From: Cliona cf. orientalis
Lineage: Eukaryota; Porifera; Demospongiae; Clionaida; Clionaidae
Length of the DNA: 64,000 nt
Assembly: GCA_963930775.1 (NCBI GenBank)
Contig: OZ005695.1
Span: 8,804,001 to 8,868,000 of the forward strand
Reading direction: 5' to 3'
How positions within the stretch are numbered: position 1 is the stretch's first letter; every line of letters begins with the position of its first letter. The notes under the pieces were generated by a model. That model saw nothing but the letters and a program-made list of their open reading frames with translations, had not been told where the DNA came from and did not search any database. A program made the translations under genes and the position numbers. Shown piece by piece: positions 4,827-43,259 of this stretch.

Positions 4827-4902
4827 CGGGCAGCCGCCGGGAATCGAACCCAGGGCCACTGACTTGAGCCGCCAGCGCTCTACCACTGAGCCACGACCAC
4901 CC
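4827..4902 (-). ncRNA. tRNA-like sequence in tandem repeat, unit 3
   Basis: Third 76-nt tRNA-like copy, again offset by 288 bp. The repeat unit is cut off about 34 bp after it, where UQCRC2 intron sequence shared with the other copies (CATGCACACTATCCACAT) resumes. Confidence 0.75.
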
Positions 4903-21821: not shown

Positions 21822-21941
21822 ACCAACCCTACGTCCCCAGACTCACTGCAAGTCCCACGCGCACGCGCAAACTGCCAGTACTCTCCACGTGGCCTTTCTA
21901 TAGACTTCACTTTGAGCTTCATAGCATATTTCCCCTTTTCG

Positions 21942-23153
21942 ATGGCTGGCGGCTACGAATACCATTTCATTGAAGCTCCTGACGAGCTCCTTTGTCTGGT
22001 GTGCCAGCACATCGCGAGAGAGCCCCACCAGATGGAGTGTTGCGGGAAGATCTTTTGTAAGACTTGCATCAAGGACGACCGCGTATCCAGTTGCCCCAAC
22101 TGTCGCGAATCTTCGCCCCGAATATTCCGCGATCTTCGTAGCTCTCGAGACGTCAAACGCCTGAGAGTCGTTTGTGAACACGAGGAGGAAGGTTGCGAGT
22201 GGTCTGGTACGTTGGAGGAGTACGAAAAGCACAAGGATGGGTGTGGCTTTGAAGAAATTCTGTGTTCTAATTGGCCTTTGTGTGAACAAATGATCCAGAG
22301 ACAGCACCTGAAGGATCATGAGGACATGGAGTGTCCTAGAAGAAAGGAAATGTGCCATGTGTGCCATAAAACAATTATCCATGCCGAAATGTCTGAACAT
22401 CGTTCCAAGTGCCCCAAGATTGAGGTGGTACGTACCAATTTCGGCTGTTCCGTTAGGATGTTTCGAGAAGAAATCGACGCACACAAGAACGTCTGTCCAA
22501 AACAAAGGATTCCTTGCCCGTATAAGGATGCTGGTTGCAATGCTGTGATCTTTCGGGAGGATCGCCAGCAACACCTTGAGGAAAGCATTGAACTGCATAG
22601 CAGCATCGCCAAAGACACTGTCTCCACATTGAGAAAGGAGTTAGCAGACACTAAAAATGCACTTGAATCGAAACGAGTACCACCTGTGACCTTCAAGATG
22701 AGTGGCTACTCACAGCTTAAAGAAACTAATGGTACATGGAGGAGCCCGTGTTTTTACACACACGAGGGTGGCTACAAGATGACACTACATGTTTACGGTG
22801 GTTTCTACGACACTGATTCTTTAGCAGTATTTATTCGAATAGCCTCTGGTCCAAATGACGATAAGTTGTTATGGCCTTTTGTTGGTAAAATAACAATAGA
22901 GATTCTTGATCAGCAGGACGATTTCGGACATCATGAAAACACACTTTATTGGCAAGGAACAGCTCCATCGTCACAAAAGCCACATGAAGGCACAGTAAAT
23001 ACTGGTCATGGAATCTCACAATTCATTACTTATTCTGATCTCGAAAGAGGCAAGTATGGTTGTCAGTACCTTAAGAATGATAGCGTGTATTTTAGAATTT
23101 ACAAAGCATCTGCTGACGCACAGTGTAAGCCCTGGCTCATTTGTTCTCCATAA
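21942..23153 (+). CDS. TRAF-like RING, TRAF zinc-finger and MATH-domain protein
   Basis: Single exon, 403 residues. I chose MAGGYEYHFIEAPDELLCLV as the start because the RING begins at once (C18, C21). The upstream open frame extends a further 121 codons but is made of foldback repeat. The order is RING (CLVCQHIAREPHQMECCGK, FCKTCI, CPNC), TRAF-type zinc fingers (CEHEEEGCEWSG, CSNWPLCEQMIQRQHLKDH, CPRRKEMCHVCHKTI, CPYKDAGCNAVIFRED), a short coiled coil, and a C-terminal MATH/TRAF-C domain (VTFKMSGYSQL, WRSPCFYTHEGGYKM, YLKNDSVYFRIYKA). The family transduces receptor signals as ubiquitin ligases and scaffolds. The RING has Lys at the usual His ligand position. It converges with WDR90, stop codons 166 bp apart. 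Confidence 0.9.
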   Translation: MAGGYEYHFIEAPDELLCLVCQHIAREPHQMECCGKIFCKTCIKDDRVSSCPNCRESSPRIFRDLRSSRDVKRLRVVCEHEEEGCEWSGTLEEYEKHKDGCGFEEILCSNWPLCEQMIQRQHLKDHEDMECPRRKEMCHVCHKTIIHAEMSEHRSKCPKIEVVRTNFGCSVRMFREEIDAHKNVCPKQRIPCPYKDAGCNAVIFREDRQQHLEESIELHSSIAKDTVSTLRKELADTKNALESKRVPPVTFKMSGYSQLKETNGTWRSPCFYTHEGGYKMTLHVYGGFYDTDSLAVFIRIASGPNDDKLLWPFVGKITIEILDQQDDFGHHENTLYWQGTAPSSQKPHEGTVNTGHGISQFITYSDLERGKYGCQYLKNDSVYFRIYKASADAQCKPWLICSP

Positions 23154-23318: not shown

Positions 23319-26300
23319 TTATTGCAAAGTGATATGCCAAACATGGAGAGTTGATCCACATGCAGAAATCAGTATGTCACCTAGCGGAGAAAACATCACA
23401 ACGTTGACTCCATCATAGTGTCCAGCGTAGTCCTGAAACGATCCCTCCTCGTAATCCATCAGCTTCAACACTCGCTCTGGAGGGAAAATTTAAGAAGCCC
23501 TGATTTTTCAGCTATAATAATAGTCTAAACTCTTCAGTAATCATTGCTTCCAATTCTCATGCTGTCATTCAGGGTATCTAAGGTATAGTATTGCTATGCA
23601 GTAATTCAACATTTTCTATCACATAATAATAATATTATTGTGTATATACTTCCCCTCTCATATGTTTTACCTTGACACCCAAAGGCTAGCAGGTGTCCAT
23701 GAGGAGAAACGTCGAGGGCTATCGGCCAGTGAGTGAGAGAGGAGGTACGGAATACGGTCTTTCTGGAGATGCTGTAGAACTGCACACACTTGTCCAGCCC
23801 ATAGCCTGTGTACACTATGACATCAGCATCCGTGGGGCAGAACCTGGCGAGACTTGGAGGCAGAAGGTCATACTGACACTGCGGAGTTAAAATAATACAA
23901 CTATAAAGTGGAACGAGAGATAACAGGGGCTATTCTGGAGGTTATTAATCACCCCCCCCCCCCTTTAGGTAGCCATATTCCTTAAAATTTTTTTGGATTG
24001 GTCGGCACCTGGTCTCAACCTTTCATGCAACAGCTCTCTAATCTCAGCCTTGTCCCCAGGCCACATTTTAAGCTTTTTTCAATGCTATACGTTGAAAAAT
24101 TGAAAACCAGGGGACAAGGCTGCTCCATACAAAATCAATTATTTTTAAAGCCAGGGGGGTACATTCAATCCAATTGTGAGGTTGTGTTCCCCACCTTGTT
24201 TGTCTTCTTGAGTCTGGTTCCGTCCGGGGCAAAGGCTGGACCAGGAAAGGTGAGCCAGTCCACCAGCTGACAGCTGTTATCCCTATGCCACTCAGAGCTC
24301 CAAATGCTGACTCGGCGATCACCGCTAGCAACCAGCCACAGGTGACTCTCCATGCCAAGAGTAGGTAGCTATATAAATATGCACATAAAATATTATAAAG
24401 AAGCAATTTTGCTGTATAAATTAACTATTTTTGAAAATTTTATCACTTGCAAAAAATTAATGCAAGACATTGAAAATTAACATCGAAAAATTCGCGAATG
24501 TACACATACCATGAGTGTGTTTGCTGAGAACTGTAGGTCAGTGATGGGCGCTCCCTCATGATCAGAAATCACCCGAACAACAAGACCACTTGTTGGGTTG
24601 CTAACGGCAACAACACCATCAGCACAGCCTGAGATAACCACACAGCCTAGAAGGTTGATTAATTTCAGTACAGCATTCAATTTAAAAAATTCACTTCAGT
24701 CTATATATTATAAGAATAATATTATGTTATAGAACCCTACTCTAACTAATTTTGAAAATTCTCTGTGGACAACTTAACTGTTCAATAAGTTGTCCATGCA
24801 GATAGCAACTGAGAATGATGTCACTTGACTTAATATTAAGTTTATTTACCATCAAATGAGTACATCACTGCTTTGACTGCGGTGGCATGTGGCTGCATTT
24901 TCCTCACCATCTTCACCTCAGTGGCGTCGAAAACCCTCACAGTTCCATCACTGTACCCAGCAACAATGTCCAGGATACATGTAGCAGATGAGGGGGATGA
25001 TTGCTCCTGCTCCTGTTCGTTATCTCCAATGCTACCTCTAGCCTGCTGAGGGGCAAAGGCCAGGCAAATGCAGGTTTTCTTCGGAGCTTGAAAGGCTACT
25101 ATCTGTTCCATGCTCTCAATGCTCCACACGGCCAGCAAGCCATCGACGCTACATGTGGCAAAATGTGTCCCATCTTTGGCAAAGGCAATGCCACAGATTT
25201 CTCCCGAGTGTCCACTGACAAGCTTCACTTTGCTTAAGTCGGACCAGTTGATGTACCATACTGAGCCAGATGAAGTACCAACCACACCCTGGAGGAAAAA
25301 AATTTATATAAAGTGACACACTGTATTTTTTCCTTTGAGCCCACTCTTTAATGAAGAAAATAGGCATTGAAATATTTATTGTGAACCTAAAGGCAAATTA
25401 CCATACTTAATCTAATACTACGTATGGAAAAAAAATAATTTCAATTTTGAAAAACGTGCAATTTTCTGGTAAAGGTCGTCAATCGCTCCATATACCGTAT
25501 AGCCAGAAATATTGGCAGGAATTAAATTTGGCGGTTGAGCCCAAAATCGCTATTGCAAGAATATTGGCGGATTTAAATTTGGCGGTTCGGTACGGGATCA
25601 CCATACGTATATATGCGAGTAGGAAATTTTGGCGGATTTTAATTTGGCAGTTGTGATGTAGACCGCCAAACCGCCAAATTTAATTCCCCGCCAATACTTC
25701 TGGCTATACGGTATATACGTTATGAGAATTCGTAATTTGCTAATTTCTTACGTTAGATTGGATCATATGTTGTATTCGATTATCTACGGTAATAATTCAC
25801 CAGTTCCATCTTTGAGTCAAAAGCAGCTGAGAATATGCCACCATCGACTTCCATGGTCTTGGTCATGGAGACGGAGGGAGGGGAGTGGGTGTGGTCAACA
25901 GACCACAGCTGCAAGGCTCCACCCACGTTGCCTGTCACCAACTGATTTGCACCATCAACCATAGCACCTGAGAAATATATAAGTACGACATGAATTGTTT
26001 TCATAAATGTGTGAGACATACTGATTTCCGATGGCTCAGTCCTCCAATAGAGCAGACATTTGTTTTCGGTTGTGTCCCATATCGTAATCAATCCTAGGTA
26101 GGAGATAGACAGAATGAGAATAATACAAGCTTCTTCATGGCTAAAATTAATGTACCATTGCTTGTTGCAATGAAGAGTGTTGGGTGAGTACCGTAGCTCA
26201 GTGAAGTGAACTCTAGGCCAGAGCTAGGCTGAGTCTGCAGTAAATCAGCTGGAATACTTGGCTCATGTACCTGATAAGAGAGAGAAATAAAAAAAAATTC

Positions 26301-29300
26301 TAAGGTTACTTCCCCCCTTCCCCCCTTCCCCAACGTGCAACAGAGTGGTAAAATTATCCCTTTTTCGACAAATTACTAACTTTTTCATTTACCTTCAGGT
26401 TGAATTCCTTTCCACCTCTTGTCTCTTCTACCATCCAGAAGCTGACCTTTGACCCACTTCTCCCTCTCTCTCCTCCCCCTCCTCCTCCTCCCACTGTGGT
26501 GAACTCATAGGCAACGTGAGGGTCCCAGGCAACAGCATGCACTGGACATTGAAGAGTAGTGGACACCAACAGGCTGTAGTCATGAGAGCTCCACACACAA
26601 AGATTGCCATCCTGAAATGTGCCTATATAGAGGGTAGAAAATATTATATGTAATGAAGAGGTGCAATACTATCACAGACAAACTACACTGTACATGGTGT
26701 AAAAGGGTACATAAAAACATCTAACGAAAAGCTTCTTAATGTGTACTAATGATTGAATAATACTAATCAGCTTACCAACTGATAGCAGTAGTCGATCATC
26801 CTTAGAGAAAGCCATGCAACCAACACAGTGACTGTGATAGGTGAGCACCTATATTAAAAAAAAATATGTACATTACATTTACGATGGTAAAGATAATAAT
26901 GTGTGAACGTACTTTGGAACACTTTCCAGAGCTGGTCTTCCATATTCTTATCTCACAGGGAGAAGAGGCAAAGGCCGGACTAGCACTGGCCACCATAACA
27001 CCACTGTGCTGAACAGCCAGTGTAGATACCTCCTCTGTGTGACCTATATACATGACATTACATGTCAAGCATATAATATAGCATTCTATCAGTAACAATC
27101 TAAGTTGTACCAGTGAGATGACGCTGCTTGCTATTGGAAAGGTCTTCAATTACTACTATACAGCCACTACTGTATATAAATAGTCCTGTAGTTATGCAGG
27201 GAGGTAAAAATAGAGAAAAAGAGAGAGAGAGATTCAGATATTCCATACAGCCTACAATGTTTACCAGTGCTCGGTAGCCAACACACGTTGTTTCTGCCGC
27301 TCCCACTCAGTCCGAGCACACTCTTTCTTGCCATCCCTGCCTGGGTGGGCGGAGCTATGTAAAGCTGCTCGGCTAAGCTTGAGCGAGGTTGATGTGGCCT
27401 GCAGTGCTTCAGAGCTTTCGGTTTGCGAGGTTCATAATTATTAGAGGGAGAGTTAGGAAGGTAGGGAGGGGGTGGAGATTCCTGCTCGGCACTGGGTGGT
27501 TGAACGGTTGCTGATTTTGGTTTCAAAACAATTTCAACTCCTCCGTTGTCATCCTAACAACAAAATAGTTATATAATAGTCTTAACATTGTTCCTTGGGC
27601 CATTTTCAACATTGAAACTTGGAGATGAAGCTAGTAGCCTGGGGACAAGGCTGTAACGTAGAGTGAAGGCTACACAGTATTATACCTGTTGAACTATCAC
27701 ATCTTCCTCACTACCATTGCTGGAGTTCCCTGCATCCTCCTGGCTCCCTTCTCTCTCTTTACTGCCGTCCTGAACTGTGTCACTCTCACTGACACCAGTA
27801 GACTCATCTCCCTCGCCACTGTTCTCTCTTCCAGTCGTCTCTTCAGATTGTGGGGTCTCTTCACCCTCTCCTTCGAATTCATGACTCCCTGACTCACTGT
27901 GTGGTTCATAGTGGTCATCACTCCCTGTGCTGAGGCGATGCTGCTGGCCTTCACTACCGCTAGACTGGCTTGGTAGACTGGAGGGTGAGTCTTCAGCAGA
28001 AACTGATACCGGTAAGATGGAAAATTTAAGCGTGTGTGATACATTCTACAAAATTTGAGCATCATAATAAACAGTGTGTGCGATTATAAAAAATTTTTTG
28101 TGAAACACAAGGTTGAAATTTGCTCATGGGATCACATGATAATTAATTCAAAGTTAAGCTGCATGCACACTCACTTTGGCGCTTTGTTTTCAGTGAGTGC
28201 TGAGCCAGAGGAGTAAATGTCCGCATCTTGAGAGGTTCATAATGAACAGGGGCAGGTGGTCTCTTGCGGGGAGATGCCGATCTCATGAGGCTGGTGACCT
28301 TATGACACTGTGGGGGTGTGCTAGGGTGGAGGGGATGAAGGGGGTGACCTAAGAACTCCCAGACGAAGACGGCATCTCCACAGCTGATCACATGACCTGA
28401 CAAGGGAGTGAACTGGACTTGAGAAATGGAGGCTGAGTGACCAATAAACACCTAAATATAAAGAATTACCAAGGAGCACACATGTCAGCAAGCTATAAAT
28501 TGTGGCTCCTATAGTATATAGCCAGCTTAAAAAGCTGGGAAAGCCCAAGAGTTGCATTTGCTCAAAACAGCTCACAGCTATAAAACAGAAAGTACCTGAA
28601 AATTGAGGTCCAAAGTCATGCTATAGTCCCACACTTTGAGCACCTTGTCTCCAGCGGTCAGTAGGTACCTCCCTGTCTTATCAACAGCCAGTGAGCTACA
28701 CTCACTGCGATGAATGTTGGATACTTCACTTAGAAGCTGCCCATTGGTGGCGTTGAATTTAATGAGCCTTGCCCCTGAGGTGATTACTAGGAGCTGATTC
28801 AAGGCTTGGGGAGAGAACAAGACGATGTGGGCGGAGTCTAGTTTGGAGGAGCCAGAGGGAGGTGGAGCCATAGGAGTGATGTCTAGACGAAGCAGCTAGA
28901 AAAAAGAAGAGAGAAGAGACAGATTAAGCAATGATTGGCTATTTTTCCTCGGTCAAGTAGCTACAATCCCCGCTATTTGTTCTAAATATTGGTATCATTG
29001 AAATATCACAAAATACAATATCCCCCCCCCCCCCTCCCCAAACTTACCTCTTCCATAGTATGAGCATCAAGCACAGTAACAGTGAACTCCATGGGCCCAA
29101 TAAAAGCCAGTCTGGATCCATCCTCACTCAGGGTGAGTGCCCTAGGACCATACCTCTCTCCCTTGGCTGCTGTGTTCCCTATCACCCTGACCACCCTACA
29201 CTCCACACTGTCTCCACCACAGTGGGTGTCATAGAGAGCAAGGGAACCGTTGCTGGAGCTACTGTAGAGGTTGTCACCAGATGGGGAAAAGATTAGCCCA

Positions 29301-32300
29301 GTCACATTGCCTGTGTGGACCCTGCAGATGTAGTGTGTAGATAATAACATAATAGTTTATGCCAAAATATTCCATGGTATCATTAGTGAAGAACTAAGTA
29401 TTCCATTTGAGGGAACTACTACATAAATTCTTGCTTACTGAACACATGGCATAATGCTAAAGCTATTTACGATTTTGAAAACTGTCACTAAAGAAATCAT
29501 ACCAAAGTTACATTGTGACTACTTATTACATATTGTGTATAATTATAGTTTGTTGGCTTACTTGTGCTCAGCCAGTGTTCTAGTTGAGGGAATATGGAAC
29601 ACTCTTACAGCTCCAGATTTGAATCCACAAGCAAAGATCGACCTTGAAGGATGACAAGACACACAAACTGGCATATCTCCCGCTGACCGAAAGTCAAACA
29701 GCTAACAAAAATGAACAATATCACGCCATAATCCATAAATCATTCGTGTCCCTTTCATTAATGATCATCAAACCTGCGTTCCTTGTGCGAGGTCCCAGAC
29801 TCGAATGGTACGATCACTCGAGCAAGTCACAAGCTGCCCTCGAGATTTACTGATGCTCGTACTGAGAACTGAGTCAGTATGGGATCTCATTAGAGTTGTG
29901 TAGCGCCTGCTACTGGCGTCCAGCAGACCAATGTTACCCTGTGAATATAATTATACCGATTTTTTTTGGCTATGTGGCAAAGTACACACAAAGCTTACTG
30001 AGCTGGTTCCAACTAGTATTCTCAATCCATCCTCACTGACAGATACAGCATCCACTGAACCATCATGCTCTGTATACCGTACAAGGCATGTGTGTAAGCA
30101 TCACATGGCAGTATGCATAGCAATGTGTGTATGCTTATGTGCACTTCAACATAATAATTTTCAGTGGTTGAGTTCTCGGTTGGGGATCCATCTAGAGCTA
30201 GCAATTTAGATCGTGCTACACCAACCTGGATATTCCTCCATTTCCATTATGAATTTTCATTGTTGAAAGATAATGTCCGGGTTGGTGTAGCATGATCTAA
30301 ATTAAATTGCTAGATCTAATTTTATACATGTCGCTAGATATTAGTTCAACCTATAAAATAAGTATGCAGATTTATCCAAAGCACTCATTGCAAATGCAAA
30401 TACACACTTATATTGCAACAAAACGGAAAGAACCCAACATGAAAAATGTTCGATGCTTCTTCAGGAAAGTTAAGAGGCAGGAGTTATCTTGTACATGGCG
30501 ACTCCATGGCTTGGTACGCTGGCTTTCACACTGCCTGTCATAGTTCCCATGTCTTTCTTTTGCCATAGATCTCTGACAGTGGCCTGTTTATTTGCAGCCA
30601 TACCAATATCAGACCAGTTTGCTGTCACATCGGCTGTAGAATTACCGCGGTTAAGAAGCACCACAGCAAAACATCCACCATCCAGTGGCCCGGCCCATAC
30701 CTCAAGATCATTTTCACTCTTCTTCTTGCTACCTTGGACGCCCATTTTGTCCTGATTTATAGCAATCACCTCTGTATTTGTAAGAATGCGAAGCGTGTCA
30801 CTGCTCATGTTGGAAACGTCACAGCCAATCAGAAGAGGAGCCTTCATCAAACACCACAAGCTGAAGTGAGTCTCATACTCAGCTGTGGTCATTCCTCCAT
30901 TTCCAATCTCCAGCATATCAGGATCATTCCATCCCCCAGGAGCAGCATACTTGGCCCACTTATCATTCTCATCAGCTCGTGATATCATACTGTTCCAATT
31001 ATCACCAATATCTCCGGTCGTTCGCCAACTGTTGCCAACTTTGGGAGCCCAGGTTGCTGGATTATCAACGCCCCACTCACACATGGAGAAGAATATCGGG
31101 TAGCCAGTTTTGTTGAGAGCATCTCGCATCACAGGATAGCGTTTCTCTGGTGTAGTTTTGTCAGAATTGCAGTTGTCATACTTGAGATAGTCCACCTTCC
31201 ACTTAGCGTATGTGTTGGCGTCCACCTGCTCAAATCCAAGAGAGCCAGGCCGTCCTCCACACGTCTTGTACCCAGCATCACTGTACAATCCAAACTTCAG
31301 GCCCTTGGAGTGAACGTAGTCAATCATGCCTTGAAAGTCAGAAAATTTATCCGGATCTGGCTGAATTACATTGTTAGAATCTCGACTCTTTTGCCAGCAG
31401 TCATCAATATTTACGTACTGATAACCGACCTTGTCAAGACTGTTAGCTATGAATGCATCGGCAGTCTTTTTCACGATGTCCTCGTTGATGCCGCAGTGGT
31501 AATGGTTCCATGAGTTCCAGCCCATCTGTGGTGTGCGTCCGAGGCCATTGTCCAGAGCAAGTGTGCCAACAGCACAGCAGAACACTACGCAAAGCAAAAG
31601 AACCTTCATGCTTTTCTTTCTTAGCTTCAGAGCAATATGTAGCTAGCTATATGTAAACCAAGGTCAGGTGTGTATTGCATAACTCAGCATGATATGCAAT
31701 ATCATCATAATTCTTTGCCATAAGAGGCAATGGCTATGTTTGTTATTCTACTTTTGTTGCCAGATGTTGAGCGTATGAATATACAACTTAATTGCATGAT
31801 CATGCATGACATCAGCTGCATGCATGCAACAACCCTGCTAGCTAGATAGTTCATGACGAGTCCAAATCTTAACTTAAACACAATACAAGTAGCTAATTCA
31901 TTTTTAAGAAGCAGGAGTTATCTTGTACATGGCCACTCCGTGGCTCACCACTGCACTTGTCATACTGTCTTGCATAACTCCAACGTCTTTCAATTTCCAT
32001 AAATCTCTAACTGTGGCCTTAGTGCTGCTCTTTAGTCCAATATCAGTCCATTCTGCTGTCACATTGGCTGAAGATGTACCACGATTTAGAAGCACAACGG
32101 CAACAGCTCCACCATTGAGCGGCCCAGCCCATACTTCCAAGTCATTATCGCTCTTCTTTTTGTTGCCTTGCACACCTAGCTTATCCTGGTTGACGGCTAT
32201 CACCTCTTTGTTAGTAAGAATGCGCAGAGCTTCACTATCAATATCTCGTAGATCACATCCGATCAGAAGAGGAGCCTTCATCAAACACCACAAGCTGAAG

Positions 32301-35300
32301 TGAGTCTCATACTCAGCTGTGGACATTCCTCCATTTCCAACCTCCAGCATATCGGGATCATTCCATCCCCCAGGAGCAGCATACTTGGCCCACTTATCAT
32401 TCTCATCAGCTCGTGACATCATGCTGTCCCAGTTGTCCCTTATATCACCAGTTGTTCGCCAACTGTTACCAACTTTGGGTGCCCATGTCGCAGGATTGTC
32501 CTGACCCCACTCACAGAGGGAATAGAATATCGGCCGGCCGGTTTTATTGAGTGCATCTCGCATCACTGGATATCGCTTCTCCGGTGGTATCTTCTCGTTA
32601 CCACAGTTATCATACTTGAGGTAGTCCACCTTCCATTTAGCATATGTGCTGGCATCAGTATCTTCATTATTGAGAGAACCGGGCTGACGGCCGCCACAGG
32701 TCCGATCTCCAGCAGAACTGTATAGACCAAATTTTAGATCTTTGGAGTGTACGTAATCAATCATGTCTTGAAAATCAGCAAAGTTAGTAGCATTGGGCTG
32801 AACTTGGCCGTTTGAGTCCCTATTAGTATTGGCCCAGCAGTTATCGACGTTGACGTATTCGTAGCCAAATTTGTCCAGACCCAGTTTGATGAAGGCATCC
32901 GCTGTCTGCTTCACCAAGTCCTGGGTGATGTTGCAGTGAAAGTGATTCCACGAGTTCCACCCCATTTGTGGAGTCAGTCCAAGCCCATTGTCGAGAGCAA
33001 GGCAACCGAGAGAGCAGAGCACAATACACAGTAAAATAATCTTCATGACTAGCTATTTGATACAAAAGGCACAATAAAAGCGATATTACAGCAAGAGGAA
33101 CACCTGATACAGATTATGAGGCTACAGGACAGTTACTATGAATGTAATTTGGTATTCTGACGGACATGTGACTCAGTCTGGTAAATTCAATGTCACATGC
33201 ACATATAGAGCTGTTAATGAATAAAATTTGAGTACACTATCATCAGTAATTATTATTATAATACTTCAGCAAAACACACACAAAATACATATGTCACTCA
33301 AAGTCCATTTCATACAGATGAAGGAGTTATCTTGTACATCACACTGCCATGACTGGGCACCGTGGCTATCATACTGCCCTTCATGCTCCCTAAATCCTTC
33401 ATCATCCACAAATCTCTCACATCGGCTTCCTTATTCGGATCTAGTCCAAAATCAGACCAGCTGGCCGTCACATTGGCTATCACTGTCCCACGATTCACCA
33501 ACACCACAGCATATGCTCCACCCTCCAGAGGCCCCGCCCACACCTCATTTGTCCCATCCGTCTTCCTCTTGGTACCTTGAACACCCATCTTGTCCTGATT
33601 AACAGCAATCACCTCAGTATTGGTGAGATAACGTAAAGACTCATCATCAATGTTACGTAAATCAGTTCCAATAAGCAGTGGAGATTTCATCAAACTCCAG
33701 AGACTGACTTGCGTCTGGTGTTCAATGTGAGCCATACCATGATTCCCAGCCTGCAACATATCAGGGTCATTCCATCCCCCAGGCCCCGCATACTTTGCTA
33801 CCTTATCGTTGAGGTCTGCTCGATTAATCATGTTGGCCCAGGTGTAGCCGATATCGCCAGTGGTGCGCCACATGTTTCCAACTGGTGCAGCCCATGTAGC
33901 CACATCTTCACTGCCCCAACTACACATGGAAAAGAAGATGGGTCGGCCTGTCTTGTTGAGAGCGTCGCGCATAGCTGTGTAACGTTTCTGAGAAGGTATT
34001 TTATTGTTGTTGCAGTTATCATATTTGAGAAAATCCACTTTCCACTTAGCGTAAGTGTCAGCATCGACCTCCTCATATCCAAGAGAACCAGGGCGCCCTG
34101 CACACGTCTTAGTTCCAGCATCGCTGTACAAACCAAAGAGGAGGCCCTTGGAGTGAACATAGTCAATCATGCCTTGAAAGTCTGGAAAAGCCTGGGAGTC
34201 AGGTTGAACAACGTTGTTCGAGTCCCTACTCTTGGCCCAACAATCGTCCAGGCAAACATACGTGTAGCCTAGTTTATCAAGACCTTTCTGGATGATCACA
34301 TCGACAGTCTGCTCCACCATTGACTGATTGAAATGACAGGTGAAGTTGTACCACGAGTTCCAGCCCATTGGTGGAAGTCGACCTAGACCATTGTTTAGAG
34401 CAGTAGAGCTGAGAAAACTTGCTGCCAATAGGGAAAGTATGAACGCTTTCATCTTTAAATTTGAAGGTACATACAAGTGCTATGAATCTCTGAAGGTATG
34501 GCTAGCTCAGGTGGACACACATGACTCAAGCAATGAATTCATGCATCTGAGACCATTATTTATGATCAAATTTCCGCAACATCACTGTTAACATGTGATA
34601 CCAATATTGATAGAAAAAAAGAACCCAATTCAGCCACTAATATGCTAAATATTAGCTACTCTGGAGTTATCTTGTACATGACAACACCATGACTGGGTAC
34701 AGTGGCAGTCACACTGCCCTTCATATTGCCTAAGTCTTTCATCTGCCACAGATCTCTAACATCAGCTTCCTTGCTTGTATCCACACCAAAATCAGACCAG
34801 CTTGCAGTTATATTGGCCGTAGCTGTCCCACGATTCAGTAACACCACAGCATATGCGCCACCCTCCAGAGGCCCCGCCCACACCTCATTTGTTCCATCAG
34901 TCTTTCTCTTGGTTCCCTGAACGCCCATTTTATCCTGACTGACAGCAATCACCTCAGGGTTGGTGAGGATACGAAGTGAATCCTTGTCTATCTTAGCAAG
35001 ATCACACCCGATCAGAAGAGGAGCCTTCATCAAACACCATAAACTGAAGTGTGTCTCATACTCAGTAGAGCTCATGTGACCATTACCTACTTCCAGCATA
35101 TCTGGATCATTCCAGCTGCCTGGACCGGAGCTATTTGAATCGTTGTTGTTCCGATCAGCTCTTTGAATCATACTGTCCCAGCTGTCACTGATATCGCCGG
35201 TTGTTCGCCAACTATTGCCTACACTTGGACCCCAGGTTGTAACACCTTCACGTCCTCCATTGCACAAGGAGTAGAAAATGGGACGACCAGTTTTGTTTAG

Positions 35301-38300
35301 AGCATCACGCATTGCTGTGTAACGTTGCTGAGCTGGTAAATTTTCATCATTGCAACTATCATACTTGAGATAGTCCACCTTCCATTTAGCGTAAGTATTG
35401 GCGTCAATCTCTTCATAGCCAAGAGAACCGGGGCGTTTTGCACACGTCATAGTTCCAGCATCACTGTATAAACCAAACTTGAGGCCCTTGGAGTGAACGT
35501 AGTCGATCATGCCTTGAAAATCAGGGAACGCTACTGGATCGGGTACAACTACTTTATTTGAATCTCTACTTTTGGCCCAACAGTCATCTATGTTGACGTA
35601 CTCATAGCCGATTTTATCTAGTCCATACGCGATAAATGCATGGGCTGTCTGTTCAACGATGGTCTGATTGATGCCACAGTGGAAGTGATTCCATGAGTTC
35701 CATCCCATCTGTGGAGTGCGTCCGAGGCCATTATCCAGAGCTAGGCAACTGAGAAAATGGAGCACACAAACTAGCTCAAAGACGAGGAGTTTCATGGCGA
35801 TCAACTCTATCAACAGCAAACTTGCTACACTCTAAAATTAATGCTATTCATTTTTTTCTCATGTGATGTGCTACTGGCTACAAACTATGCAATGTATATT
35901 GTTGGAAGAACTGTTCAATAAGTTGAAGCATTCTCATAACGCCTTCAGGATTCATCTGAATAGTCTTATACAAAGTCACTAATATGCTAAGATAACTCAT
36001 ATAGCTGTGTGTATACATTCACATAAGTATCAACCCAATAATGAACCAATCACTCAAAATTAACTACGATCACTCTGGAGTTATCTTGTACATGACAACA
36101 CCATGACTGGGTACAGTGGCAGTCACACTGCCCTTCATATTGCCCAAGTCTTTCATCTGCCACAGATCTCTAACATCAGCTTCCTTGCTTGGATCCATAC
36201 CAAAATCAGACCAGCTTGCAGTTATATTGGCTGTAGCTGTCCCACGATTCAGCAACACCACAGCATATGCTCCACCCTCCAGAGGCCCCGCCCACACCTC
36301 ATTTGTTCCGTCAGTCTTTTTCCTTGTGCCCTGAACGCCCATTTTATCCTGATTGACAGCAATCACCTCAGGGTTGGTGAGGATGCGAAGTGAATCATTA
36401 TCTATCTTAGTAAGATCACATCCTATCAAAAGAGGAGCTTTCATCAAAGACCATAACGTGAAGTGTGTCTCATACTCCGTTGTGGTCATTCCTCCATTTC
36501 CAACCTCCAGCATATCGGGATCATTCCATCCCCCAGGACCAGAATCATTAGCTAGCAATGCATTGATATCCACTCGTTCAATCATGCTCTCCCAGTTGTC
36601 TTTAATATCGTGGGTTGTCCGCCAGCTATTTCCCACAGTCGAGCCCCATGATGCTATATCTTCTCGACCTCCATTGCACAAGGAATAGAAGATAGGATGT
36701 CCAGTTTTATTGAGAGCGTCACGCATTGCTGTGTAGCGCTCCTTAGCGGGTTCATTTTCGTCATTGCAACTGTCGTATTTGAGATAGTCCACATTCCACT
36801 GAGCGTAAGTTTTAGCGTCAATCTCTTCATAGCCGAGAGAGCCAGGGCGTTTTGCACACGTCATAGTTCCAGCGTCACTGTATAAACCAAACTTGAGACC
36901 CTTGGAGTGAATGTACTTGATCATGCCTTGAAAGTCTGGAAACGTTTGGGATCAGGCACTATGACTTTGTTTGAATCTCTGCTTGAAGCCCAGCAGTCAT
37001 CAACGTTCACGTACACGTATCCGAGCTTGTCCAATCCATACTTTATGAATGCGTCGGCCGTGTCCTGCATTATGGTTTGGTTGATGTTGCGGTTGAAGTG
37101 ATTCCACGAGTTCCAGCCCATCTGCGGCGTGAGCCCGAGACCATTGTCAAGCGCTAGGCAGCCAAGTGCACAAAGTACGCTTGCTAGAATACAAGCAGCA
37201 AAAATCTTCATCTTGGAGAAACGGATCGCAAGTACGTGATGGGTGGGGCCCGAGAGCGCTACATACATTATGCGCATGCGTAGTACGTTGATCGCGAAGA
37301 GCGCGTAGCGCGCCAAGCATCTACTGTCCTGTACCGTATTAAATAGTACTCTCACCTGCTTCCATGAATACAGCGGAGAAATCCAGTGGCCACACCCTCA
37401 GCATCCCATCTTCTGATCCAGTCACACAGAAGGCCTCATGCAGACAGAGGGACTGTATGGCCACGCCCCCTGACTGCGGCAATAGATGCCACACCCTCCT
37501 GACCACAATTTTCTTGTAGTTTATCTCGAAGAGGTACCCATTCTTTGTACAAGCATAGCTATTTTATTTATGATCAAAGTAATTTGGTAATTCGAGCCGG
37601 TAAAAATCCGATTTTTAAACTCACACATTCCTATTGGTGACATCACCATCGCTATGGTAACCAGGCTGAAACATGACATCAGTGAAGTGCAGCTGGTGGT
37701 GCTCCTCGAGGTTCACAGGACAAGAGCGAAGTGCCCCATTTCTCACACGCCAGAAACGAATGTTGTCCCAGCCACATGACACCATCCTAAGAATTACGTA
37801 TACCAACACCCTTCATTTTCTGACTGAGATCATTAGCCACTCACTGCCCCAACAGCCTCAAAATTTAACATCCAATACTGCTATTGTTGTAATAAGTTAT
37901 ATAGCTACTTTTATAGTTATCCACCTCTTTGATATTGAACTGAATAATAATAGATCCAAGGAGATAATTATTATACCTGCTGTCGTCAAATCCAGCCACT
38001 CTCATTCGCTCGATTCTGACATCAGTGTGAGCTCTAGCCAGCACGCATACCTCGCCAGAGTGTGTGACTCGAGATGTGTTCCACACTACCACCTGACTCT
38101 TGCCATGTCTGTCCTTCCCAACTCCACATAGCACACCACCAGAGTGAGAAAAACTGCACAATATCATAAAATAATAGCCAAAAAATTGGAAATCCTATCC
38201 TTGCAATAGTAGGTGATCTAGTCTGTTAGACCCTTTAATAATTGAAGGGGAGAAGGATCAGGCCAGATTATAGTATTATTATAGTAGGTGAATTTACCTC

Positions 38301-41300
38301 AGATTGTGCAGACCACTGTGGTGTGTCTTGAAGAGGGCAAGGCATTGAGCTGAGCTGAAATTCCACACACGAACCAGAGCAATGGAACCCGTCTGCCCTG
38401 AGGCTAGCAAACTCCCATCACTGCTCATACTCAAACAAGATACCTGTGGCAATACATTAATTTACTGAATACTTAAGCTGTACATTTACATGGTGAAGTT
38501 GACTAGACTCGTTACTTTTACCTTATCTGTATGGCCGATGAAAAATCGTTGCTTCCCCGACGAGATGTCCATGTCCACAACAAGAGAGTGGCAGGGGTAA
38601 ACAACACTTTTGCAGTCCCCACTAAATAACACCTACAGCATGGGACGCACTATAGGTACATCACAAGAAAAAATGAAGTATTATGTCGTCTACCTCACTG
38701 CTGGTATGACCTCTAAATCCAATCACTTTGCTTAGCTTCATAATTGGGTCAGGCTGAAGGCTCTATGGGTAAAAAAAACCATGATAGTTTGTACTCCAAT
38801 CAACACTTATAATACACAGACCTTAAAAGTTGGCTTTTTTGGTTCAGTACGCAGGATGATGCTCCTCTTCGCCTCTAATTTTGCTCCTGCCGCATTAGTT
38901 CCCTCTTTGTGCACAGCTACTTCAGCTCCTCTCTCAGCATACACATGCACCTCCTCATAACTCTCATGTTCATCCTGTAGGTCACCTTCTTGCATAGCTA
39001 CATCATGTCTCCGCAACCGTCTCTCTCCAGTCTGGTCACTCCTGACTGATGAATGACTGGAATGTTTTTCAACCTTCATACAAGAAGAGAAATTATCTTA
39101 ACCACATTTAAAGTTTGCTCTTTTATAACTTACTAAGTTTTCCTTAGCACTGGACCGCTCTACATGTATACTGCCACCTCTCTTTCCTTCAACCTTGGTC
39201 TGTGATCTCCTTTTTTGATGCTCACCAAATTTCTCGCTTCTTGGTACTCCACTCAAGTGAGACTGCTCCTTCATGTTAGCCGGCTTCAACCTGCTCATCT
39301 CAGTTTCAAAATCATCACTCGATTCTCCCACAACACTCATTATTGCAGGGTTGTGCCCCTTGAGATGAGCATGCGATAAAACAGGCTTTACTTTCTCAAC
39401 AGGAGCTTCAGATGGAAATCGAATATAATCATATAAATCCGTAAAGCTGTGTCCTCTCGTCACCATAAATGTCATCTCCCTTGGTAGTGGGTGAACATAC
39501 TGGCAAATACTCTCCCCAGAGGGAGTTTTTGGTCTATCAGCAGAGGCGAGTGGAGAGTACTCCATGTCACTAGTGAATACGTTCTTCACTAAGAGACTCG
39601 AGCAAAGTTTGACATTCTTCAGATAGGCATAGTTGGAGTGAAGGTAGTGAGAGAGAACAGCCTTCAAGTCGAGTGTGAGTAGAGTCCACCGTACATGAAG
39701 AGATGGCTTATCGTCCCTCTTCTCAACAGAATTTGACAAAGACTCATAATGATTCTCCTTCTTGGCCGATGAAGACGAGTAAGGGAATTGAAGCCAAGTG
39801 GAAGTTGATTTGAACTCTTTGAAGAGGTTTGAGAATGAGATGCGAATGACCATTCCTTCATTGGTGACAACTTCTATGTGAACTACAAAATATTTCGCAG
39901 GCTGTGGTCTAAAAAGGATGTAGAGATAGCGTCCTGTCAGGTTTAGGCTCTGGGAGGTGGACTTCGGGAGTTGGATGTAGTTACTAGAGGGAATTGAGCC
40001 ACTGATGCGGTAGACAGTGGCCTTGATGTCACGATCCTATGAGAGAGAGAGTAGTGTGCATAATTATTGTGTATGTATAATATTTGTGAAACTGGTGCAG
40101 CAACTGAGCAAAATTAACATTGCTATAAATTAACGGCTTAAAAAGTAGCCTCATTAATGTGCTGAGAATGAGCTTATAAAATTCATACAAAATGATTATG
40201 AATATTGCAAAAAAATGATCAGGTGACTTTGCAGTTCATGAAGATTAAAGACAAAAATGGATCTCCAATGTAGCCACAATCGATGGCTAATGACTACAGT
40301 CATTGCACTGGCTTTAGCCTCAGGATGCCTGGCCGATATGCAGAGCTTTGACTGCAAAATGCGACAAATGGCTATGGACTTTGCTCGCAAGATTCAGCCC
40401 TTTCGCTCACAGGAGCACTTCCAAGAGATAGCGGATGCCCTCAATGGAGCAAAAGAAGCTCAAAACTGCAATGTCAGCGTACCTGATATGAAAAATAAGC
40501 ACAAGGATAAGGCACCCGCTTTTCCGATACCAACGACAGGCAATGTATTCTACGTAGATGCCAACAAGGGAAGTAATGCAAATCCGGGCACTATCGATAA
40601 ACCATTTGAGACTATTGTTAAAGCTATATTTTCAGCACGTGCTGCTGGGCCGTACTCCACTATTATTCTGAGAGCTGGTACATTCTATCAGCCTGAAGTG
40701 CTTGAACTAACCCCAGCGGACAAAGGACTAACGATTCAAAACTATCCCAATGAAGAGGTATGGATTAGCGGAGGAAAAGTGATCACACCTCAGTGGGAAA
40801 AATACGATGTTGACCGCTCAAAGAACACCAACATCTACAAAGCCACTTTCTCAAAAAATATCACATTTGTGTCAATACCTGGCCTCCGTGTTAACAATAA
40901 GCGGGCTATACGAGCACGCTACCCAAATGCCGATCCAAAATTGGGATTTGGCTCCACACTGACTGCCGACAAGTGGCTACCTCCAACCTTGCCACAAAAA
41001 CCTGACAAGGAGATTAATCCAAGTGACCCTTTCAGAAACTCTTCTAACTCTTTCACAAAGTACGACTTGGGCATTGGTGGACCATGCAAGAATTTTGATC
41101 CTCCAGCAGGATACTGGTGTGGCATGCATATCGCAGGAGGTGGACCACATATATACACAGTCCCTTCCGGTATGGCCATTGGTAAGAAGAAATTGCCTAA
41201 TTTGCCCTACAAAAATCCAGTCGGCGCTATTGTCCAAGCTTGGAGGCCGGGACACTGGGCGAGCTGGATGTTTGAAGTTGGCTCCTTCAGCACAGACACT

Positions 41301-43259
41301 AATGGGACCTTCACTTTTACTTTCAGCAAAGGTGGATTTCAGGGAGCTCGTGGAAATGAGAAGGGTGATGAAATAGTGGTAGAAAATGTAATGGAAGAGC
41401 TTGATGCTCCAAGTGAGTGGTTCTACGATGAAGATTCGAGAACTCTCTACTTTTTCTACAATGCAACATCGGGAACGGAACCACCAAGTGATACGCTATT
41501 TGTGATGACGAGCCAAAAGACTCTGGCGATGATTCAAGGTAATATGACCGATCCTGTGGAAGACATTACAGTCCGTGGTATCAATTTTCGTGATACAGCG
41601 TACACATATATGGACCCTCATGGCATGCCTTCAGGAGGAGACTGGGCTTTGGAAAGGATGGGAGCGATCTTTTTAGAGGGCACCAAGAATGTAACAATCG
41701 ACAGCTGCATCTTTCAGGATCTTGACGGAAATGGAATAATGGTTTCAGGATACAATCGCAACACAACAATCATACGCAACGAATTCGTTTGGATCGGAAG
41801 CACCGCTATTGGTCAATGGGGCTATACTAAGACTATTGACAGTGCAGCCCCAGGAATGGGGTGGGATGGAACTGATGGAAATCAGCCTCGATTCTCGAAC
41901 ATTAGCTACAATTTTGCTCACGAGCTAGGAATCTGGGAGAAACAATCATCCTTCTACATGAAAGCAAAGACCTGTCAGAACGTCATATCCAATAACATCT
42001 TCTTCAATGGGCCCCGCACAGGAATAGACTTCAATGATGGCTTCGGAGGTGCTAGTACTATTACACAGAACCTGCTGTTTAATTCTTGTCGAGAATCAGG
42101 AAGCCATGGCCCTTTTAATAGCTGGGACAGACAGGTCTACGTGACAAAGGTACGTGATGGAACGCCAAGTCCAGAAAAAGACTGGGACTACATTACAGGC
42201 AATTTCATGATAGCAAATTATGATAGTGTAGTAGGCGTGGACAATGATGATGGCTCGGCCTACTTCAAGACACACGGAAATTTCATAGCATACTCAAGTA
42301 CCCACCCTTCATTTGGTGGAATGAAAAACGACTTTGGCGGCCACGATAACCGCCATTACAACAATATCTACGCTTACATTATCGCTGGATTTGGAATTAA
42401 TAGCCAACTAGAAGGCCACGAGGATTACTTCTACAACAATACGGTGGTTATGACAAGGGATGGAGACTATGGCAGCGGAACGTGTGATGGACCTGGAAAA
42501 ACTGTAGTCCACGATAATCATATCTACTCTCCAACTGGCAAGATAACCGAGTGCAAGATGAGCCTAGCAGAGTGGCAAGCCAAGGGCAATGACCCAGGCA
42601 CCACTGCTGGCAAGTGGCCGGATGATAGCGACCTGGAAGCTATGGTGCGCTGGCTGCTGAATATCTAGCTAACTCTTGATTTTGAATTATAAGCATACTA
42701 TATGTTGTGTTATAACATTCTTTTTGTCATTGCATTTGAAAATTGCTGGCCCGTGTGCAGTAGCTATATCATGGTAATCATGACATGCACACACCAGTGA
42801 ACAAAATAATCACTGAGTTCTCTGCAGGACGGTGTCCAACAAAATAGTAATTCTCTGCCGGACAGCATCCAACAAAATAATAATTCTCTGCAGGACAGCG
42901 TTGAACAAAAAATTATACTTTCTGCAGAACAGCATCTACCAAAATACTCTTGCTGCTCCGAGTACATGTAAATTGGATTATGCATCCATTCCCTTAATTT
43001 TAATCATAGTCTACATTTTCACCATATGTGAAGTGACATCTCCTTCTTTGCTGCATTTCTTCCACTGACCAACTCCAAACTGCTTGAAGAGGTTGACATG
43101 AGGGTGCTGCCACACTGTTGGTGTGCATTATTTAGAAGCAGGATGGAAACACTAAAAATCATACAACTACATGTAGTCATACGTGAATTAACGTGACTGC
43201 TATAATGCACACATTAAATTAGGATAGCCAGCTACTTCAGATAACTCACTGGATGTCAT
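23319..43259 (-). CDS. WDR90: WDR90/POC16 centriolar WD-repeat protein, with nested genes in introns
   Basis: A many-exon gene of about 20 kb. Exon 1 (43250-43259) codes MTS plus one base. Exon 2 (43023-43114) gives [19 protein letters not shown]. Exon 3 ends at 40036 and gives [20 protein letters not shown] and later [13 protein letters not shown], the N-terminal CFAP20/DUF667 domain. WD-repeat exons follow: [58 protein letters not shown], ending [14 protein letters not shown] at 23319. WDR90/POC16 is a microtubule-associated protein of the centriole wall. The exon ending in MEA (37356) joins [15 protein letters not shown] (ending 30069) in phase 1 across a 7,286-bp intron that holds five GH27 genes. 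Intron 2 (40037-43022) holds an antisense beta-helix gene. Confidence 0.9.
25492..25714. mobile_element. MITE with ATACCGTATAGCCAGAA ends
   Basis: The ends ATACCGTATAGCCAGAAATA and its near reverse complement (TTCTGGCTATACGGTAT) flank several TTTGGCGG units in both orientations. It lies in a WDR90 intron. A partial relative is present at about 10840-10925. Confidence 0.9.
30191..30318. mobile_element. Short hairpin MITE in WDR90 intron
   Basis: TAGCAATTTAGATCGTGCTA followed by CACCAACC is mirrored by GGTTGGTGTAGCATGATCTA and onward, with a spacer of about 40 bp. It lies at the 3' side of the large intron that carries the GH27 genes, outside any gene. Confidence 0.8.
30470..31609 (-). CDS. 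Secreted GH27 alpha-galactosidase-like enzyme, paralogue 1
   Basis: Intronless, 379 residues, close to the usual size for plant-type GH27. A signal peptide ([18 protein letters not shown]) precedes [18 protein letters not shown]. Substrate-pocket motif NIDDCW is at about 67-72. The nucleophile is D145 in YLKYDNC, and the acid/base is D200 in [16 protein letters not shown] is followed by a C-terminal beta-sandwich. The specificity loop reads MCEWG, with Glu as in alpha-galactosidases. GH27 enzymes remove terminal alpha-galactose, or alpha-GalNAc, by a retaining mechanism in lysosome or secretion. It is the most 3' of five tandem paralogues inside a WDR90 intron, and the next starts 294 bp upstream. 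Confidence 0.88.
   Translation of the reverse strand: MKVLLLCVVFCCAVGTLALDNGLGRTPQMGWNSWNHYHCGINEDIVKKTADAFIANSLDKVGYQYVNIDDCWQKSRDSNNVIQPDPDKFSDFQGMIDYVHSKGLKFGLYSDAGYKTCGGRPGSLGFEQVDANTYAKWKVDYLKYDNCNSDKTTPEKRYPVMRDALNKTGYPIFFSMCEWGVDNPATWAPKVGNSWRTTGDIGDNWNSMISRADENDKWAKYAAPGGWNDPDMLEIGNGGMTTAEYETHFSLWCLMKAPLLIGCDVSNMSSDTLRILTNTEVIAINQDKMGVQGSKKKSENDLEVWAGPLDGGCFAVVLLNRGNSTADVTANWSDIGMAANKQATVRDLWQKKDMGTMTGSVKASVPSHGVAMYKITPAS
31904..33046 (-). CDS. Secreted GH27 alpha-galactosidase-like enzyme, paralogue 2
   Basis: Intronless, 380 residues. The signal peptide [17 protein letters not shown] leads into [19 protein letters not shown]. Nucleophile Asp is in YLKYDNC and acid/base Asp in [12 protein letters not shown]; the specificity loop is LCEWG. 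The pocket motif reads NVDNCW where the other four paralogues have DDCW, so the second of the two Asp residues that bind galactose in this family is Asn. Otherwise it is close to paralogue 1 and has the C-terminal beta-sandwich. Activity may be changed. Confidence 0.88.
33310..34452 (-). CDS. Secreted GH27 glycosidase, paralogue 3, with alpha-GalNAc-ase-like loop
   Basis: Intronless. I chose the Met at 34452 because [18 protein letters not shown] is a clean signal peptide; an upstream in-frame Met at 34476 would add eight residues. [24 protein letters not shown], nucleophile in FLKYDNC, acid/base in [12 protein letters not shown] and GGWNDPDML are present. The specificity loop reads MCSWGSED: Ser replaces the Glu of paralogues 1 and 2. 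In known enzymes this Glu/Ser position separates alpha-galactosidase from alpha-N-acetylgalactosaminidase, so this copy may act on alpha-GalNAc. That is inference from one loop. Confidence 0.87.
   Translation of the reverse strand: MKAFILSLLAASFLSSTALNNGLGRLPPMGWNSWYNFTCHFNQSMVEQTVDVIIQKGLDKLGYTYVCLDDCWAKSRDSNNVVQPDSQAFPDFQGMIDYVHSKGLLFGLYSDAGTKTCAGRPGSLGYEEVDADTYAKWKVDFLKYDNCNNNKIPSQKRYTAMRDALNKTGRPIFFSMCSWGSEDVATWAAPVGNMWRTTGDIGYTWANMINRADLNDKVAKYAGPGGWNDPDMLQAGNHGMAHIEHQTQVSLWSLMKSPLLIGTDLRNIDDESLRYLTNTEVIAVNQDKMGVQGTKRKTDGTNEVWAGPLEGGAYAVVLVNRGTVIANVTASWSDFGLDPNKEADVRDLWMMKDLGSMKGSMIATVPSHGSVMYKITPSSV
34656..35795 (-). CDS. Secreted GH27 glycosidase, paralogue 4
   Basis: Intronless. The start at 35795 gives [19 protein letters not shown] as signal peptide; an in-frame Met at 35819 is also possible. 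NIDDCW, nucleophile in YLKYDSC, acid/base in [12 protein letters not shown] and [12 protein letters not shown] are present. The specificity loop reads LCNGGRE, unlike either known vertebrate pattern, and GPGSWNDP replaces GPGGWNDP. It shares the CNGG loop and the [13 protein letters not shown] segment with paralogue 5, so the two form a sub-pair. Confidence 0.87.
   Translation of the reverse strand: MKLLVFELVCVLHFLSCLALDNGLGRTPQMGWNSWNHFHCGINQTIVEQTAHAFIAYGLDKIGYEYVNIDDCWAKSRDSNKVVVPDPVAFPDFQGMIDYVHSKGLKFGLYSDAGTMTCAKRPGSLGYEEIDANTYAKWKVDYLKYDSCNDENLPAQQRYTAMRDALNKTGRPIFYSLCNGGREGVTTWGPSVGNSWRTTGDISDSWDSMIQRADRNNNDSNSSGPGSWNDPDMLEVGNGHMSSTEYETHFSLWCLMKAPLLIGCDLAKIDKDSLRILTNPEVIAVSQDKMGVQGTKRKTDGTNEVWAGPLEGGAYAVVLLNRGTATANITASWSDFGVDTSKEADVRDLWQMKDLGNMKGSVTATVPSHGVVMYKITPE
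36070..37211 (-). CDS. Secreted GH27 glycosidase, paralogue 5, single-base frameshift
   Basis: The first part (37211 to about 36924) gives [52 protein letters not shown] and [16 protein letters not shown]. The second part continues in another frame from [20 protein letters not shown] to the normal end MYKITPE. In the paralogues, ValProAspPro is followed by a reading that preserves FPDFQGM; here one base is missing near 36945, between AAAC and GTTTCC. Everything after is intact, including [19 protein letters not shown] (His before the acid/base Asp) and loop LCNGGRE. It is either a very young pseudogene or a sequencing error. Confidence 0.75.
40257..42668 (+). CDS. Secreted right-handed beta-helix protein nested antisense in WDR90 intron 2
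   Basis: Intronless, 803 residues. An N-terminal hydrophobic segment ([14 protein letters not shown]) fits a signal peptide. After a Lys-rich linker, [19 protein letters not shown] and [20 protein letters not shown] open a pectate-lyase-like fold. Then come [39 protein letters not shown] and later helix rungs ([53 protein letters not shown]). Several N-glycosylation sequons are present. This layout is common in bacterial and fungal glycoside hydrolases and polysaccharide lyases with a beta-helix, but I cannot assign a family or name catalytic residues. Its context next to five GH27 genes suggests glycan processing; that is inference. Confidence 0.8.
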   Translation: MDLQCSHNRWLMTTVIALALASGCLADMQSFDCKMRQMAMDFARKIQPFRSQEHFQEIADALNGAKEAQNCNVSVPDMKNKHKDKAPAFPIPTTGNVFYVDANKGSNANPGTIDKPFETIVKAIFSARAAGPYSTIILRAGTFYQPEVLELTPADKGLTIQNYPNEEVWISGGKVITPQWEKYDVDRSKNTNIYKATFSKNITFVSIPGLRVNNKRAIRARYPNADPKLGFGSTLTADKWLPPTLPQKPDKEINPSDPFRNSSNSFTKYDLGIGGPCKNFDPPAGYWCGMHIAGGGPHIYTVPSGMAIGKKKLPNLPYKNPVGAIVQAWRPGHWASWMFEVGSFSTDTNGTFTFTFSKGGFQGARGNEKGDEIVVENVMEELDAPSEWFYDEDSRTLYFFYNATSGTEPPSDTLFVMTSQKTLAMIQGNMTDPVEDITVRGINFRDTAYTYMDPHGMPSGGDWALERMGAIFLEGTKNVTIDSCIFQDLDGNGIMVSGYNRNTTIIRNEFVWIGSTAIGQWGYTKTIDSAAPGMGWDGTDGNQPRFSNISYNFAHELGIWEKQSSFYMKAKTCQNVISNNIFFNGPRTGIDFNDGFGGASTITQNLLFNSCRESGSHGPFNSWDRQVYVTKVRDGTPSPEKDWDYITGNFMIANYDSVVGVDNDDGSAYFKTHGNFIAYSSTHPSFGGMKNDFGGHDNRHYNNIYAYIIAGFGINSQLEGHEDYFYNNTVVMTRDGDYGSGTCDGPGKTVVHDNHIYSPTGKITECKMSLAEWQAKGNDPGTTAGKWPDDSDLEAMVRWLLNI
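42817..42950. repeat. Degenerate tandem repeat, about four units of 30-35 bp
   Basis: The core TTCTCTGCAGGACAGC...CAACAAAATA recurs four times with point changes. It lies in WDR90 intron 2, between the end of the beta-helix gene and WDR90 exon 2. No function is visible. Confidence 0.7.

Follow-up and report, generated by a model that had tools for sequence, protein, structure and literature searches.

The window, by which we mean the whole 64,000-nucleotide stretch that was analysed, contains on its minus strand the gene for the centriole protein WDR90, two introns of which house other genes (Table 1). Hand splicing gave 30 exons, running from 43259 to 23319, that join into one frame of 1972 residues. 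Since the splice sites were picked by hand, the GT-AG borders of all 29 introns hold by construction, and the real evidence for the model is the uninterrupted joined frame and the match of its product to the family. Pfam profiles, all above their curated cut-offs, placed CFA20_dom at residues 3-122 of the spliced protein, the second WDR90/POC16 propeller at residues 754-1051 and the fourth propeller at residues 1634-1970; this combination of an N-terminal CFA20 domain and WDR90-type propellers in one hand-spliced protein assigns it to the WDR90/POC16 family. The junctions proposed by the initial annotation, MEA to EHDG across 37355-30070 and exon 2 to exon 3 across 43022-40037, were confirmed to be in phase by the spliced frame. 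The introns (n = 29) have a median length of 135 bp and the third-longest measures 512 bp; the only two long ones, of 2986 and 7286 bp, are exactly those that contain genes.

Tail to tail with WDR90 lies a TRAF-type gene encoding TRAF zinc fingers and MATH (window positions 21582-23153), which occupies one frame and is apparently intronless. Farther away, a 288-bp unit is repeated in tandem (2.7 copies, 99% match, window 4163-4935) and the repeat holds three tRNA-Glu(CTC) genes; a fourth tRNA-Glu(CTC) gene is found at window 59398-59470.

Table 1. Features of the WDR90 locus, in window coordinates.
Feature	Position	Strand	Details
WDR90 exons 1-10 with introns	37356..43259	-	Start codon 43257-43259; spliced frame; CFA20_dom in Pfam
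33-bp minisatellite, 3.9 copies	42818..42946		Follows the beta-helix gene within intron 2
WDR90 intron 2, 2986 bp	40037..43022	-	Houses the beta-helix gene; spliced frame
Beta-helix protein gene, 803 residues	40257..42668	+	One frame; BT_1002-like fold; antisense to WDR90
WDR90 intron 10, 7286 bp, phase 1	30070..37355	-	Houses the GH27 array; MEA and EHDG joined across it
GH27 copy 5 (c5)	36070..37211	-	Motif CNGG; frameshift near 36940; start codon 144 nt into the intron
GH27 copy 4 (c4), 379 aa	34656..35795	-	Motif CNGG; intact frame, Pfam
GH27 copy 3 (c3), 380 aa	33310..34452	-	Motif CSWGS; NAGA-like specificity positions; intact frame, Pfam
GH27 copy 2 (c2), 380 aa	31904..33046	-	Motif CEWG; intact frame, Pfam
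GH27 copy 1 (c1), 379 aa	30470..31609	-	Motif CEWG; intact frame, Pfam
Inverted repeat, MITE-like	30203..30303		Between copy 1 and exon 11; 32-nt arms, 91% complementary, 37 nt apart
WDR90 exons 11-30, 3' part of the host	23319..30069	-	Stop 23319-23321; spliced frame; Pfam propellers

The initial annotation had described five tandem GH27 genes on the host strand. The five frames are there and all of them lie on the strand of WDR90, but only four are intact, copy 5 being frameshifted. Their coding sequence, with the broken copy counted, makes up 78% of the 7286-bp intron; the spacers between copies measure 203-294 nt, and the distance from copy 1 to exon 11 is 400 nt. A Melibiase_2 domain was recognized by Pfam in copies 1-4 and in the 3' part of copy 5 at 186-244 bits against a curated cut-off of 23, in agreement with the proposal that carbohydrate-active families are nested in WDR90 introns. 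Both catalytic columns hold Asp throughout the alignment (124/124 and 125/125 filled rows), one as the catalytic nucleophile and the other as the acid/base. The signal peptides were judged by eye only, from hydrophobic N termini. In copy 5 the N-terminal frame stops just below 36924 and the remainder continues in a different frame, whereas P0076 (96% identical over the 3' part) and P0038, relatives from other genomes, are intact. A cysteine found in both relatives is missing from the window copy (NHFNRN versus NHFHC), which hints that the frameshift may be real decay rather than a base-calling slip. Copy 5 is broken here, and therefore not every GH27 copy is maintained. By eye only, a palindromic stretch near 25480-25740 resembles the inverted repeat listed in Table 1.

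Intron 2 holds, as had been annotated, an antisense frame for a beta-helix protein. A fold resembling that of Bacteroides BT_1002 (PDB 5mqp), which we take to be a GH141 enzyme, spans most of this putative enzyme; the two differ in that identity is only 19% and in that the conserved N-terminal part before residue 93 falls outside the match. The same family occupies 16 places in the genome, the window copy included, with open frames of 799-858 residues; seven are at 67-100% identity and nine at 39-46%, several are in tandem, and a stop lies inside the match in only one. Relatives elsewhere include Sycon ciliatum and protist transcriptomes among the 120 matches listed of 524. As seen by eye, three paralogs (C17:6694101-6723300, minus strand) lie between plus-strand ABC-transporter-like frames, and an array on C16 is adjoined by single-frame sulfatase-like and receptor-like genes (L111:533-2224 and L111:4033-6063, both on the minus strand). 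From these C16 flanks, long single-exon genes seem common in the genome.

The arrangement in intron 10 extends beyond this assembly. P0038, an open reading frame of 467 residues from another genome that stands among the 120 listed of 7994 GH27 matches, opens with 23 residues that are 96% identical to WDR90 residues 680-702 in exon 10, passes the exon 10 donor site and then runs into a GH27 sequence that groups with copy 5 in both of the trees described below. Complete GH27 genes lie within one WDR90 intron in the window, and one ortholog is nested elsewhere as well. To compare co-occurrence, 53 GH27, 35 WDR90 and 50 beta-helix contigs were matched by exact size, representing part of the 120 matches listed per search (of 214 for WDR90 exon 3 and of 7994 for GH27). 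WDR90 exon 3 and GH27 frames shared a contig in three cases, one of 1939893 bp with four GH27 frames, P0038 included, and two of 33472 and 453268 bp with one each, when 0.0065 coincidences on average were expected by chance (sizes jittered by 5%). Only P0038 proves nesting outside the window; the other two contigs show co-location. At least two GH27 frames were present on each of seven contigs among the matches listed. Beta-helix contigs were shared with neither GH27 nor WDR90 contigs among the matches listed, and nesting of this gene elsewhere was not found, although absent coincidences mean little because an entry stands for a whole cluster, of which just the longest contig is given.

These observations bear on whether the locus could be an assembly misjoin, or WDR90 in fact two genes flanking the array, the two outcomes that the initial annotation had set against its own reading. 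The full arrangement is known from one assembly, and this is what such a reading can draw on. It is contradicted by P0038, which in another genome reads across the exon 10 donor into GH27, and by the three contigs that carry both WDR90 exon 3 and GH27 frames, P0038's among them. Moreover, the spliced protein matches other WD40 families at residues 469-729 and 672-863 (Pfam) in a way that bridges the exon 10/11 junction near residue 703, and its best PDB matches, CFAP52 chains, align across the same junction. When the genome was searched with the second-propeller profile, the top matches were the WDR90 exons of the window; nowhere else scored alike, with at most 44 bits for a single match and at most 79 when its neighbours were counted in, and these other matches were taken as other WD40 proteins. 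A second WDR90 copy was not found in this search. On the evidence of P0038 and the shared contigs we discarded a misjoin or two genes, to which we attach a very small probability.

The open frame of P0038 from exon 10 into GH27 could also be read as a WDR90 exon 10-GH27 fusion produced by read-through of the splice donor. Against this, the WDR90 frame of the window runs for only a few codons beyond the donor before it ends (MEAGESTI and then a stop), and GH27 begins in a different frame; the open run is therefore not conserved. We rejected the fusion on this ground and regard its probability as practically negligible.

The relationships of the GH27 copies were studied with a quick tree of 84 rows and a second tree of 45 rows with ultrafast bootstrap and SH-aLRT. 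In both trees every window copy groups with matches from other genomes, so the duplications predate the split of these genomes, and the proposal that one nested gene was later expanded in tandem was borne out for GH27. The nested lineage (13 rows, five from the window and eight matches) forms one group with support 97/95; P0027 was unstable, falling on the c1 side in the 84-row tree and on the c2 side in the 45-row tree. Across 10/10 pairs of window copies (copy 5 by its 3' part) dS was 0.46-2.19 and dN/dS 0.13-0.20, values that show the copies to be old and under purifying selection. The same genome has an intronless sister GH27 outside WDR90 (C7:54.2-55.4 kb), which groups with P0011 and P0053 (100/94) and adjoins the nested lineage (85/91). 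By eye, this plant-type gene (positions 4207-5427, minus strand, of C7:50001-60000) stands head to head with a parkin-like gene. Corticium candelabrum is among the nearest named relatives in the GH27 listing (120 of 7994 matches).

The trees also bear on where the nested genes came from. In the 45-row tree 15/15 bacterial rows lie beyond a branch of support 100/98, with four plant rows and 26 others on the opposite side; in the 84-row tree the 29 bacterial rows are apart from the nested GH27 as well. The tree did not resolve the plant rows against the remaining 26 non-bacterial rows (74/79). At this sampling, 29 and 15 rows out of at least 80 bacterial loci fetched, the nested clade is not inside the bacteria, and a recent bacterial origin of GH27 was rejected. 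A single relative on a viral contig (L081, 32% identity) sits on a long branch and was uninformative. Solved GH27 structures ranked by score as 6f4c (501 bits) and 1uas (494 bits), which we take to be plant alpha-galactosidases, 3a5v (326 bits), presumably a fungal enzyme, two putative entries at 283 and 271 bits that we assume to be bacterial, and GLA/NAGA at ~240 bits. As for a possible parent gene in the genome, a GH27 gene on C14 is intron-split, and NAGA is the best match for a piece of 107 residues from it; this gene (C14:1777001-1787000) carries CSWPAY. The C14 gene is of NAGA type, so the genome has both GH27 types. The close full-length relative of the array is intronless and the intron-split C14 piece, the one piece examined, is distant and NAGA-type; the nested copies are therefore not recent retrocopies of the C14 gene, and retroposition from the genome's own animal-type GH27 was rejected. 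Two further GH27 pieces were seen at C66:9626-10001.

A recent acquisition, either as bacterial genes or as retroposed copies inserted directly into WDR90, would agree with the intronless and carbohydrate-active nature of the nested genes, as is typical of transferred genes, and with identities to copy 1 that are about equal for bacterial relatives (at most 54% among the matches listed) and for plant matches (P0017 56%, P0057 59%). An Amphimedon study points the same way: in its available part, galactosidases are named as one of the largest groups of HGT candidates (PMC4784904). Besides the placement of the bacterial rows and the distant, NAGA-type character of the intron-split piece, it is opposed by the orthologs of each copy in other genomes and dS of up to 2.19, and by the non-nested sister and the 16 beta-helix places being single-frame too. 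Neither a nested GH27 clade inside one bacterial group nor, among the pieces examined, a close intron-containing parent in the genome was found here, and we hold a recent acquisition to be most unlikely.

This also changes how the intronless state is understood. The initial annotation had explained it by capture, possibly through horizontal transfer or retroposition, against which stand the plant-type grouping, the intronless C7 sister and the 16 single-frame beta-helix places; nor is it special to the nested genes, as had been suggested, since the TRAF-type neighbour and other copies of both families are single-frame as well. Because the C7 sister is intronless and the 16 beta-helix places are single-frame, the nested genes were most likely intronless before nesting, and since members of both families outside WDR90 also occupy single frames, a recent transfer or retroposition is needed for neither. 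As an alternative to an old eukaryotic paralog, an ancestor could have received the GH27 gene by a deep transfer, bacterial relatives being up to 54% identical to copy 1; given the rank of galactosidases among the Amphimedon HGT candidates in the same part of PMC4784904, such a transfer at the base of the GH27 family is possible.

The copies differ in the loop that recognizes the sugar. The motif is CEW in copies 1 and 2, CSW in copy 3 and CNG in copies 4 and 5. In 5/5 rows with CSWG the next residue is S (three rows) or A (two rows), and P0109, a sixth row near copy 3, reads CSGGA. NAGA entries and 3lx9 show CSWPA, and GLA shows CEWPL. At the contacts with the 2-position of the sugar, copy 3 and its orthologs have Ser plus Ala/Ser where alpha-galactosidases have Glu plus a larger residue (Leu in GLA), the same as in animal alpha-N-acetylgalactosaminidase (NAGA). 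This two-position change is reportedly the one used to interconvert NAGA and GLA in the laboratory. We tentatively propose, at somewhat less than even chances, that the array is a birthplace of new sugar specificities, in which copy 3 and its orthologs would have independently evolved NAGA specificity and copies 4 and 5 (CNGG) would have a further pocket, within a same-strand nest kept in another genome for at least the first copy along the host strand and with the host untruncated. If so, the switch between galactose and N-acetylgalactosamine would have happened again, in a plant-type GH27, and the array would offer a compact set of paralogs.

The initial annotation asked how genes nested on the host strand are transcribed and terminated without truncating WDR90, a question that we judge fair. 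In human cells, sense-oriented nested genes and L1 elements can cut host transcripts short by combining cryptic acceptors with poly(A) sites, an effect that SAFB proteins suppress, according to the portions of PMC10901741 and PMC3192792 at hand; in five animal genomes there is selection against overlaps on the same strand, as stated in the accessible portion of PMC2330155. We found AATAAA or ATTAAA in 0/5 of the spacers after the GH27 stops, with 1.7 expected, and these hexamers may not be the ones used by this animal. Because 191/1000 spacer shuffles lacked them as well, their lack is within chance. Weaker variants are present in 4/5 of these spacers; downstream of the beta-helix stop, 354 nt contain none of the 12 poly(A) hexamers tried. 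AATAAA occurs once inside each GH27 coding sequence and is absent from the spacers, also within chance. The hexamer pattern is hard to square with simple units transcribed independently, if this animal relies on such hexamers. On the WDR90 strand, the two introns as a whole were not depleted of poly(A) hexamers (6 versus 4.6 expected, and 3 versus 1.9). Tuning by SAFB-type purine-rich GAAGAA was rejected, at 0.18 per kb on both strands with no excess on the GH27 sense strand.

Could the array instead be a polycistronic unit that spliced-leader trans-splicing separates, or could WDR90 primary transcripts be the source of the enzymes? The spacers of 203-294 nt, the single strand and the lack of a canonical poly(A) hexamer after any copy speak for it, as does a leader reported in the sponge A. 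vastus in the consulted sections of PMC10282587. The same sections place that leader on only 4% of A. vastus long reads, and the lack of hexamers is within chance by the shuffles given above. We consider such an arrangement improbable.

The reading that we favour, and hold with considerable confidence, is that intronless genes came into existing WDR90 introns and that GH27 then duplicated in tandem and diverged. A GH27 gene in sense orientation would have entered intron 10 and a beta-helix gene in antisense orientation intron 2, both from families already intronless and multicopy, and introns 2 and 10 would have existed before them. The tandem duplication preceded the split of several related, probably sponge, genomes. 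Purifying selection has maintained each intact copy, presumably as a secreted enzyme of the galactosidase type, and the recognition loop has diverged. Each nested gene may have its own promoter in the short spacer, and the WDR90 pre-mRNA would run through the array, which splicing would remove. Possible substrates of the enzymes are galactose-containing polymers from food, algae or microbes. An old array packed on the host strand poses a difficult problem of termination and splicing, as each copy could trap the host transcript, and the locus could be used to learn how such traps are avoided outside bilaterians.

In the literature on WDR90 and sponges, judged by title, we found no description of this locus, and in that on sponge, alpha-galactosidase and GH27, judged by title or the start of the abstract, no work on sponge GH27 genes; the available excerpts of PMC6011409 and PMC7971027 do not mention GH27. 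Sponge annotations include up to thousands of nested and single-exon genes, and the consulted sections of PMC10282587 count 2432 nested genes in A. vastus, 3358 in A. queenslandica, 5032 in S. ciliatum, 83 in O. minuta and 0 in E. muelleri, the low numbers being ascribed by the authors to annotation settings. Genes nested in introns are thus well known as such, and the WDR90 locus is distinctive by its same-strand packing and its recognition-loop changes.

As enzymes, the GH27 copies resemble 6f4c and 1uas, their highest-scoring solved relatives, which align over nearly the full length and share the catalytic motifs; unlike these, the copies are intronless and in tandem, and copies 3-5 have an altered recognition loop. 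The animal lysosomal GLA/NAGA (1r46, 1ktb, 3h53) are GH27 relatives too, with CSWPA in NAGA against CSWGA/CSWGS in the orthologs of copy 3, but they score far lower (~240 versus 501 bits), and the NAGA-type gene of this genome lies elsewhere and is intron-split. As a nest, the locus is like glassin, a single-exon gene nested in another gene in two sponge species according to the same sections of PMC10282587; glassin, however, is one gene and no enzyme family, whereas WDR90 intron 10 holds a tandem enzyme-family array. Conserved multi-gene nests in one intron are known in insects for the TipE cluster and for the GMC oxidoreductases in flotillin-2, as described in the available part of PMC3240667. 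The TipE cluster, like the GH27 array, consists of several related genes that share one intron of a conserved single-copy gene to which they are unrelated, and it is kept between species; its members lie on both strands and are channel subunits, while the GH27 copies are all on the host strand, tightly packed and of a glycosidase family. In that same part of PMC3240667, the GMC oxidoreductases are an enzyme family placed mostly in one host intron, as in the GH27 array, from which they differ in enzyme family and in lineage.
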